Shown piece by piece: positions 2,945-52,870 of a stretch of DNA of 64,000 bases. The notes beneath the pieces were generated by a model that saw nothing but the letters and a program-made list of their open reading frames with translations, did not search any database and was not told the origin of the DNA. Position 1 is the first letter of the stretch. The number at the start of each line of letters is the position of its first letter. This DNA is from Clostridia bacterium. Its GTDB lineage: Bacteria; Bacillota; Clostridia; Christensenellales; CAG-138. The DNA lies in NCBI GenBank assembly GCA_017538255.1, contig JAFYJD010000025.1, forward strand, positions 62,001-126,000. The letters run 5' to 3'. The position numbers were made by a program, and so were the translations under genes.

Positions 2945-4195
2945 TTACATTCTCTTTTCGTACTTTCTCTTTTCGTACTTTGCTTTGATATGCCTCTGTT
3001 CGTTCGGCTCCCTGTCAAGACGGAATTGGACGGAGTTTTTAAGATAATGCAGATAACTTTCGTCGTCGCACATAGCCTTGCCCGGCGTATCCGACAGTTT
3101 TGCAACGGGGCGGTCGTTCACATACTGCAGTTTTATAACGATATTGAGGGGATCCACACAGGTGTCGTTGGAGCAAAATGTACCGATGCCGAATGAGACC
3201 TTTGTCTTGTCCTTAAAGTACTCGTAGAGCGCCTGCGCATTGTCGAAGTTCAGGCTGTCGCTGAACAGCAGCAGTTTTGTTTTCGGATCAACACCGTATT
3301 TTTTATAGTGATCGATTATCTTGTCGCCCCATACGAATGGATCGCCGCTGTCGTGCCTAACGCCCGAATAGTTATTTACCATGGAGCGGTTGAAGTCCAG
3401 TAAGAACAGATCGGTTGTTATCGTATCCGTGAGTGCAGTTCCGTTATCGCCGTCATATTCATCGTACCAATCGCGAAGCGCGTAGTGGTTGGTAAACGCG
3501 AGCGGGATCGAATCGATGCCCTGGTACATCTGCACGAACTCGTGCGCGTATGTGCCTATCGGCGTCAGATCGTATTTCATTGCGAGATAGACATTTGAGG
3601 TGCCCACACAGTTCTTTGTTTCCGTCGCCAAGCGCCGCACAACCTCGTCCTGCCACTCCCTTGAAAGCCTGCGTCTGCATCCAAACTCCGCAAATGAGAA
3701 TGTGTATTTGCCGGAGTTAAAATCGGCAATCTTTTGGTCAAGGCGTTCCATCGCGGAAGCCTGTAACTCTTCATAATTATAACTTAGTCTGAAATAAACC
3801 TCGTTGATGATCTCCAAAAGATATATCTCAAACTGCATCGCAGAAAACAACGGACCGTCGACGATGACACTCAATTCGCCGTCTTCGCTGAGGCTTGTAA
3901 AAACATATTCCCTTATCGGATGCCAAAGGCGCAAGAACTCAACATAGTCGTTTTTAATAAAACGAATGGAACGCAGATAATCAAGTTCCCGCTTCGTAAA
4001 ACTTAAACTGCAAAGATGGTCGATCTGCGCATTGATCTCCTCAAGCATTTCTTTTGTAAACCTTATATCCTCATTGCGGCATTTGAAATGGTATTCGCCG
4101 CAGAGGTCGGTATGCTTATGAAAGATGACCTGATCCATATTGAACTTATACAGATCCGTGTCAAGCAGCGAGACAACAATTGGTTCGAGTTTCAT
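2945..4195 (-). CDS. pncB: Nicotinate phosphoribosyltransferase
   Basis: A 416-residue enzyme that converts nicotinate and PRPP to nicotinate mononucleotide in the Preiss-Handler NAD salvage route. Recognisable elements are LLDTDLYKFNMDQ at the N terminus, the active-site segment GCRRRLSREWQDEV, and VRHDSGDPF followed by LLLFSDSLN in the phosphate-binding barrel. ATG 4195 is chosen over 4213 because AAAGGA lies 8-9 nt upstream of it. The C terminus ends in a Lys/Arg/Tyr-rich tail encoded by two exact 15-bp tandem copies. The gene is first in a pair with the amidohydrolase. Confidence 0.9.
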   Translation of the reverse strand: MKLEPIVVSLLDTDLYKFNMDQVIFHKHTDLCGEYHFKCRNEDIRFTKEMLEEINAQIDHLCSLSFTKRELDYLRSIRFIKNDYVEFLRLWHPIREYVFTSLSEDGELSVIVDGPLFSAMQFEIYLLEIINEVYFRLSYNYEELQASAMERLDQKIADFNSGKYTFSFAEFGCRRRLSREWQDEVVRRLATETKNCVGTSNVYLAMKYDLTPIGTYAHEFVQMYQGIDSIPLAFTNHYALRDWYDEYDGDNGTALTDTITTDLFLLDFNRSMVNNYSGVRHDSGDPFVWGDKIIDHYKKYGVDPKTKLLLFSDSLNFDNAQALYEYFKDKTKVSFGIGTFCSNDTCVDPLNIVIKLQYVNDRPVAKLSDTPGKAMCDDESYLHYLKNSVQFRLDREPNEQRHIKAKYEKRKYEKRM

Positions 4196-51772: not shown

Positions 51773-51843
51773 GAATGTATAAGTAATAGCGAAGTTTGCG
51801 CCTGTCGGCGCAAGTGATGTTATTCGTTACGCTCACTGTGAAG

Positions 51844-51915
51844 CTTCGCGGCTTCGAATCCAATTGATATTCTTGCCAAAAACAATAGCCACCCTGTTGG
51901 TGGCTGTTGTTTTTG
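51844..51915. repeat. 72-bp direct repeat, distal copy of the tRNA-Tyr terminator
   Basis: Identical to 52716-52787 except one base, an offset of 872 bp. It contains the full terminator hairpin found behind tRNA-Tyr and stops at the base matching the tRNA CCA end. On the minus strand it now serves the membrane protein gene. Confidence 0.92.
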
Positions 51916-52003
51916 TGAAAGAGCGCATAAAAGCGTACCATAGCATAGAAAGAAAAGCGAAATGGTACGCGCCGCTTTCTCTCGGCAAACGGGAAATTAT
52001 CCT
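51914..52003 (-). repeat. About 90-bp dispersed repeat, copy C
   Basis: Starts GTGAAAGAGCGCATAAAAGC and ends CTCGGCAAACGGGAAATT. A 9-bp inverted repeat (GCGTACCAT / ATGGTACGC) spans its centre. It covers the 3' end of the minus-strand membrane protein gene, like copies A and B at 9249 and 10934. Confidence 0.6.
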
Positions 52004-52446
52004 TTTTTATATTCTGCATTTTTGTATGTCACGAAAATATGTCCGACAGCAAACATGACGGCAAAACCGACAAGCAGCCAATGCCGCAGGAGGACTCCGC
52101 TGAGAAGAAAAATACACGATGGAATCACAGCAAGGACGAGGGCAAGCACTGTTGTTTTCCGCTTCATATATACCGCAAACGCGAACCAATACACGGTGAT
52201 CAGTATTGCGTTGCCTGCCAGATAAAGCGCCATTTCAAGCACACTCAAAAAACCAAACTTCCATACAAGGAGAGGAAGCCACATGAGCACGATACAAGCA
52301 TATCTTCCGATCTGCTCGATGATATTCATAAACCGGTTGCTGCAATGATTCGTTTCGCCTTTGTTTTTGAACGCATAAGCGATATTCGGTATCAGCATCA
52401 GAATCACAAAAGCAGCCCCAAAAACATTGATCCATCCAAATTTCAT
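51997..52446 (-). CDS. Four-helix membrane protein of unknown function
   Basis: A 149-residue protein with helices at about 5-25, 47-70, 74-95 and 100-130, and a short Lys-rich tail. No motif is recognised. The ribosome binding site is poor (GTGGTG), but a promoter lies upstream. It lies between the two 72-bp repeats behind tRNA-Tyr and reads in the same direction as the tRNA. Confidence 0.65.
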   Translation of the reverse strand: MKFGWINVFGAAFVILMLIPNIAYAFKNKGETNHCSNRFMNIIEQIGRYACIVLMWLPLLVWKFGFLSVLEMALYLAGNAILITVYWFAFAVYMKRKTTVLALVLAVIPSCIFLLSGVLLRHWLLVGFAVMFAVGHIFVTYKNAEYKKG

Positions 52447-52481
52447 TCTTGCACCACGTTGAATCCAGATTTGTCGAGTTG

Positions 52482-52510
52482 ATTATATCACAGCCAAGCG
52501 TTTTGGGCAA
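52482..52510 (-). promoter_or_regulatory. Promoter of the four-helix protein gene
   Basis: On the minus strand TTGCCC (52505-52510), 17-bp spacer and TATAAT (52482-52487). A GTTCCGC / GCGGAAC hairpin lies just upstream at about 52530-52550. Confidence 0.55.
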
Positions 52511-52562
52511 TAAAAACCTGTCTTGACATCACGTTCCGCGCAGCGGAACACATCGTTCCACC

Positions 52563-52597
52563 AAAGGAAAAAACCGCCATCCGGCGGTTTTTCCTTT
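52563..52597 (-). terminator. Second terminator hairpin in the tRNA-Tyr locus
   Basis: A 15-bp stem (52563-52578 with 52583-52597, one bulged A) and ATCC loop. On the minus strand it directly follows the 18-nt tRNA-Tyr fragment, as a terminator follows the tRNA. Confidence 0.7.
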
Positions 52598-52598
52598 A

Positions 52599-52616
52599 GT
52601 GGACGGGGATGGATTC
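52599..52616 (-). repeat. 18-nt fragment of the tRNA-Tyr 3' end
   Basis: An exact copy of 52788-52805: acceptor 3' strand, discriminator, first two bases of CCA and half of the T arm. The 5' part of a tRNA is missing. Confidence 0.85.
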
Positions 52617-52735
52617 CTTTTTCGCGCATTGGGTCTGCGTGCTCGCTCATACCGCTCGCACTCGCCCTGCGTCGCAAAAGCCGGCCGCGGAAAACGCGTC
52701 GCAGGCGCGTTTTCTCTTCGCGGCTTCGAATCCAT
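52609..52735. repeat. 127-bp GC-rich element with inverted ends
   Basis: Begins ATGGATTC (52609-52616) and ends GAATCCAT (52728-52735). Inside is an AAAACGCG / CGCGTTTT hairpin (52691-52698 with 52706-52713). Both ends equal part of the tRNA-Tyr T arm (GATGGATTCGAAC). It has no coding potential that I trust; long spurious frames cross it. Confidence 0.5.
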
Positions 52736-52787
52736 TTGATATTCTTGCCAAAAACAATAGCCACCCTGTTGGTGGCTGTTGTTTTTG
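52716..52787. repeat. 72-bp direct repeat, copy next to tRNA-Tyr
   Basis: Matches 51844-51915 with one mismatch. It contains the tRNA-Tyr terminator and the right end of the 127-bp element. Confidence 0.92.
52749..52786 (-). terminator. Terminator of tRNA-Tyr
   Basis: A 13-bp stem (52753-52765 with 52771-52783, one mismatch) and a T run on the minus strand, directly behind the CCA end. Confidence 0.8.
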
Positions 52788-52788
52788 G

Positions 52789-52870
52789 TGGACGGGGATG
52801 GATTCGAACCATCGTAGTCTGTGACAACGGATTTACAGTCCGCTCCCTTTGGCCGCTCGGGAACCCGTCC
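52789..52870 (-). tRNA. tRNA-Tyr (GTA)
   Basis: An 82-nt class II tRNA with a long variable arm. The acceptor GGACGGG pairs with CCCGTCC, the anticodon loop CTGTAAA carries GTA, the variable arm is TGTCACAGACTAC, and the T arm is GATGGTTCGAATCCATC. The discriminator is A and CCA is encoded (52786-52788). Confidence 0.97.

Follow-up and report, generated by a model that had tools for sequence, protein, structure and literature searches.

The question raised by this locus is why a 72-bp sequence directly behind a tRNA-Tyr gene recurs on the far side of a neighboring gene, and what kind of element leaves such an arrangement. The window, the whole 64-kb stretch of DNA that was analyzed, holds the two copies at 51844-51915 and 52716-52787, 872 bp apart and identical at 71 of 72 positions, as stated in the original prediction. 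As a genome-wide search recovered only these two copies in the 1.76-Mb genome, and as the pair is the sole long repeat of the window, the match is not due to chance. An assembly artefact is an unlikely source, since the repeat is shorter than the usual short read and lies inside a 203-kb contig. The original prediction explained the repeat by one insertion behind the tRNA that duplicated a 72-bp target. We instead observed two tandem units, a gene-less unit of 189 bp and a gene-bearing unit, each with a copy of a folded element that we call BODY, truncated in the gene-bearing unit.

The anchor of both units is tRNA-Tyr(gta) on the minus strand (52786-52870; ARAGORN and Rfam tRNA), whose last two bases are shared with the 72-bp repeat. 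Unit 1 (52617-52805, minus strand), delimited by repeat analysis and comparison with relatives, carries in order the working tRNA 3' end, terminator A, a 12-nt spacer and BODY. Its insertion into the T-loop was placed at 52806/52805 (TTC/GAATCC) from a comparison of empty and occupied sites at this genome's other tRNA-Tyr. Terminator A is a palindrome that takes in the tRNA CCA (52748-52788, minus strand; inverted repeat I4 and terminator scan). BODY, of ~127 nt (52609-52735, minus strand; covariance model match of 131 bits), is bounded by R'' ATGGATTCGAA (52725-52735) and R' GAATCCAT (52609-52616) and folds as a three-way junction of helices P1, P2 and P3. A displaced 20-nt copy of the tRNA 3' end, GAATCCATCCCCGTCCACTA, occupies 52597-52616 (minus strand; direct repeat D4), with terminator-like palindrome B to its 3' side (52557-52603, no strand assigned; inverted repeats I8 and I10). 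Neither this second tRNA 3' end with its own palindromic terminator, nor the strongly folded element that lies between it and the proximal 72-bp copy, had been described in the original prediction.

The interval between the repeats had been proposed to hold one minus-strand gene with its own promoter, together with a copy of a dispersed repeat. The gene is plausible, as an open reading frame for a 149-aa membrane protein (51997-52446, minus strand). The promoter-like site upstream of it (TTGCCC-17-TATAAT, 52482-52510, minus strand; 10/12 in a consensus scan) has an extended -10 element, but it is weak evidence because the region contains 3 such sites against 1.9 expected from shuffled sequence. 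The dispersed repeat could not be substantiated, as BODY and the palindrome at 52534 each have a single match in the window. Unit 2 ends in the distal 72-bp copy (51844-51915, minus strand; direct repeat D1), in which terminator A' is followed by the same spacer, by R'' and by the opening bases of a BODY that stops after GCCGCGAAG at 51844. A covariance model scan of the window detected no complete BODY at this copy, and unit 2 is probably no longer independently mobile given this truncation. A REP-like hairpin (AACTTCACTTGCGCC...GGCGCAAACTTC) adjoins the truncated BODY (51787-51823, no strand assigned; 92% match at G000:C12:223992-224028); it has two copies in the genome, each beside a truncated BODY. 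We considered this hairpin as the origin of the 72-bp duplication and rejected it, as it merely abuts the truncated BODY.

The 72-bp repeat consists of a terminator, a spacer and the first part of BODY and occurs once in each unit. The idea of a small unit inserted behind the tRNA stands, and the tRNA and the cargo gene do each have a terminator, but the 72 bp are the unit's own 3' module, and what was duplicated as the target is the tRNA 3' end of ~20 nt. Near-identical 72-bp copies on either side of a gene are what a single insertion with a 72-bp target duplication would leave; however, the 72 bp span R'' and the beginning of BODY, and gene-less units elsewhere consist of one terminator and BODY with only the tRNA end duplicated. 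We consider a single insertion of that kind extremely improbable.

BLAST searches with the tRNA-BODY stretch placed BODY behind other tRNAs of the genus as well, tRNA-Ser and tRNA-Arg among them, and in 9 of 11 genus genomes; G003 and G004 matched by the tRNA end only. Using a covariance model built from 29 copies, we detected BODY in 37 of the 61 genomes of the GTDB family, with up to 22 copies per genome. The loci that we fetched comprise 69 distinct tRNA-BODY pairs covering 23 isoacceptor types, and in all 69 the first BODY lies 46-83 nt past the tRNA CCA, always on the tRNA strand, with further copies in tandem behind it. Most units are ~190 bp long and gene-less. Outside the family, weak matches were obtained in 3 of ~290 genomes of the class, with shorter hairpins, behind tRNAs Ser(gga), Gln(ctg) and Leu(taa); R''/R' match in the Gln and Leu cases. 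As these weak matches still lie directly behind tRNAs, the covariance model is probably too narrow and this kind of element more widespread. A degenerate BODY was also seen behind tRNA-Pro in a red-deer MAG. No BODY match above the Rfam gathering score was found for the window and ten related loci, BLASTN against plasmid and phage records returned none, and 93 pattern matches in viral contigs included none that a profile identified as real.

The ends of BODY are matched to the tRNA that it follows. R'' is the reverse complement of the T-loop and T-stem of its own tRNA: in the window, ATGGATTCGAA is the exact complement of TTCGAATCCAT in tRNA-Tyr, and the corresponding R''/tRNA pairs are TTCGATTCCCA/TGGGAATCGAA for Gly(ccc), TTCAAGTCCCA/TGGGACTTGAA for Leu(gag) and TTCGAGCCCCT/AGGGGCTCGAA for Lys(ctt). 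Across the 69 pairs, not all of which are independent as related species share loci, R'' matched its own tRNA at a mean of 10.5 of 12 positions compared to 8.9 when tRNAs were swapped, a value reached in 0 of 2000 permutations. The sequence 3' of BODY repeats that of the tRNA, in direct orientation, from GAATCC onward (11.0/12 for the own tRNA, 7.8 when permuted; 0 of 500 permutations), and this copy matches at 10 or more of 12 positions in 57 of the 69 pairs, which span the 23 isoacceptor types.

Empty sites in relatives indicate how such a unit is joined to its tRNA. The other tRNA-Tyr of this genome lies in a conserved cluster (Pro-Glu-Met-Asp-Thr-Tyr-Leu(cag)) and is occupied, reading TTC/GAATCCATCCCCGTCCACCA-terminator-BODY-GCGAAAAAC/GAATCCATCCCCATCCACCATTTTTTATTTTGCGGATATGG, the last part belonging to tRNA-Leu. 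The same site is empty in G005 and G008, where it reads TTCGAATCCATCCCCGTCCACCATTTTTTATATGCGGATATGG and ...CCATTTTTATTTGCGGATATGG. In the occupied site the copy behind BODY adjoins the native neighbor and the front copy completes the tRNA. A second polymorphism was found between Gly(gcc) and Gly(tcc), which is empty here and occupied in G006. The tRNA-Tyr comparison concerns the same element at the other tRNA-Tyr and not the window locus, where synteny is lost within the genus. These alignments give good support to an insertion of units at the T-loop between TTC and GAATCC, with the exact base ambiguous inside the repeated stretch. "Displaced" as used for the rear copy refers to position only, and either the front or the rear copy may be the original.

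We asked whether BODY acts as DNA or as RNA. Folded as single-stranded DNA, the window BODY forms P1 (R'' with R', 8 bp), P2 and P3, and its two strands have z-scores of -4.4 and -4.8. Across 51 copies, pairing in P1 and P2, together with a short P3 helix, was present in 95.4% of cells, falling to ~46% when the alignment was slid by one column, and two-sided changes outnumbered one-sided changes by 238 to 17. Covariation in P1 follows from the match of both ends to the tRNA; P2 is independent of that match. A structured RNA that serves tRNA 3' processing or termination, and is copied along with tRNA ends, would explain this strong covariation and the constant placement of BODY, 46-83 nt behind the tRNA and on its strand. 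Such an element is nonetheless improbable, as BODY follows strong terminators, is found in tandem copies and behind protein genes far from the tRNA, has no Rfam match and is lacking from the empty sites of relatives. G-T pairs make up just 1.2-1.5% of pairs in BODY compared to 3.9% in the acceptor stems of the same loci. The low G-T share and the location behind terminators point to BODY acting as DNA more than as RNA, and because of that location it is probably little transcribed. Among non-Watson-Crick pairs G-T exceeds A-C, which favors the RNA reading to some extent and makes an RNA or one-strand role of BODY possible.

From these data we lean toward a reading of the window as a two-unit array of tRNA-anchored cassettes whose BODY recombines as folded single-stranded DNA. 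Each unit would consist of the 3' part of a tRNA, an optional gene, a terminator, a spacer and BODY, with BODY as the presumed recombination site, active in its folded single-stranded form. Pairing of R'' with R' would create a duplex with the sequence of the tRNA's right half-site, and a recombinase would then join BODY to the tRNA in the way that integrons join a folded attC to attI, the tRNA acting as an attI-like dock. New units would enter beside the tRNA and push older ones outward, and a gene trapped between a tRNA end and BODY would become a co-oriented cassette. The circular junction expected from this scheme is GCGAAAAAG joined to GAATCC and the tRNA end; neither a circular form nor movement at the level of strains was observed, which weighs against the scheme.

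The proposed array resembles integron cassettes in having one or more genes followed by a structured site of conserved fold and variable sequence, and in arrays that extend from one anchor with co-oriented genes and mixed cargo, including restriction-modification genes. In contrast to integrons, BODY units are anchored at tRNA T-loops, with many anchors per genome, and BODY is a three-way junction with ends that match the tRNA rather than one long attC hairpin. None of the 61 family genomes encodes an integron integrase (TIGR02249) above cut-off, and the attC boxes RYYYAAC and GTTRRRY were found on neither strand of any of the 51 BODYs. As both IntI and the attC boxes are lacking at these thresholds, the BODY system is not an integron, though it is possible that an integron integrase acts in trans or was missed in incomplete genomes. 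The predicted enzyme may likewise act in trans or have been lost; Xer, a lost or trans-acting enzyme and a non-tyrosine enzyme are candidates. No dedicated tyrosine recombinase common to the unit-rich genomes was evident, and G035, with at least 9 units, has one tyrosine recombinase gene. A serine recombinase was found beside BODY only at L240 and in a 15-kb island (L353).

A non-autonomous single-strand transposon, of the HUH/Y1 type or similar, could produce related structures if R'' guided it to the T-loop and the tRNA 3' end were duplicated on insertion. Consistent with this, the complementarity of R'' to the tRNA extends over 11-12 nt, includes the invariant TTC and exceeds that of R', and many of the displaced copies have a length, 14-20 nt, that a target duplication would have. 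Y1 elements, however, usually make no target duplication, and the duplicated tail often extends through the CCA; we regard such a transposon as unlikely, though worth keeping in mind.

BODY could also be the leftover attachment region of integrative and conjugative elements (ICEs) or prophages that inserted at tRNA genes, and some BODYs do have an ICE-type integrase or a large serine recombinase nearby. Against such an origin, which we rate as quite unlikely, most units are 190 bp long and gene-less, the BODY structure is conserved across 23 tRNA types, and phage records, plasmid records and viral contigs contained no match. In G030, the ICE at tRNA-Ser(cga) has its crossover in the anticodon arm and has moved away a BODY that was already there, so the units are not remnants of an ICE of this type. 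At this site (L391 and L392, G030:C19) the ICE, with its tyrosine integrase, lies by the tRNA, and the old tRNA 3' half with its BODY is found ~15 kb away.

The BODY units share with tRNA-targeting elements (ICEs, genomic islands and tycheposon-like elements) insertion into a tRNA, restoration of its 3' end and a displaced copy left behind. They differ from these in being mostly ~190 bp without genes or an integrase of their own, in a single conserved fold that serves 23 tRNA types, and in a crossover at the T-loop rather than in the anticodon arm, as in the local ICE. Like REP sequences and MITEs, they are short non-coding hairpin elements found across the genome; unlike them, they lie mainly at tRNA 3' ends, contain a sequence complementary to the target tRNA as well as a copy of it, and sometimes include genes. 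The open-access PMC literature yielded no description of such units, and this family of small folded tRNA-inserting units is apparently undescribed. On balance, we favor the view that they form a new class of mobile cassette in Clostridia, with DNA sites encoded by structure, tRNA docks, matched ends and gene collection without an integron integrase. If this is true, cassette arrays are anchored at tRNA genes across a bacterial family, which would be a second route to gene collection of the integron kind, based on tRNA T-loops. It would bear on the origin of integron sites and on tRNA 3' ends as integration hot spots, and the recombinase acting on BODY would be a clear search target.

Genes are carried by six of the BODY-flanked units, a small number that weighs against the cassette reading, and in all six the genes are co-oriented with the tRNA (two-sided chance ~0.03). 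Genes of integron cassettes lack promoters, but the gene in the window has a weak promoter-like site. Besides the 149-aa membrane protein of the window, the cargo comprises an APH-like phosphotransferase (L121), a 174-aa protein with an alpha/beta hydrolase (L128), a CDP-alcohol phosphatidyltransferase-like protein with a 129-aa protein (L173), DUF1648/SdpI (L183), and a cytosine methylase with a type II restriction enzyme (L185), and restriction-modification cargo ties the units to defence. The 149-aa protein had no Pfam match above cut-off. In 10 genus-mates its gene is absent save for one 29% match, and 45 homologous loci were found in rumen and gut bacteria MAGs, most of these relatives having 60-76% identity. 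No BODY was matched at these homologue loci (search R1), which indicates that the gene also travels by other means. Judged from this distribution of sequences, the 149-aa gene is a horizontal acquisition, not necessarily as a cassette.

Variation in the makeup of units was seen at several other loci. At L129 (G010:C11, ~3360-3450), a unit follows the 3' half of a tRNA resembling tRNA-Arg(cct), with no recognizable 5' half, and Rfam detected no intron there. The island at L353 (G005:C19:26500-44569) has tRNA-Gly(ccc) and BODY, then 15 kb with type I restriction-modification-like genes (named from their sequence alone), a primase-like gene and the large serine recombinase, and then two BODYs. 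In units not adjacent to the tRNA (L130, L175, L181, L182 and L187), the terminator palindrome tends to be reduced to its right arm, as if selection acted on the first terminator only, or as if palindromes lost an arm after displacement.
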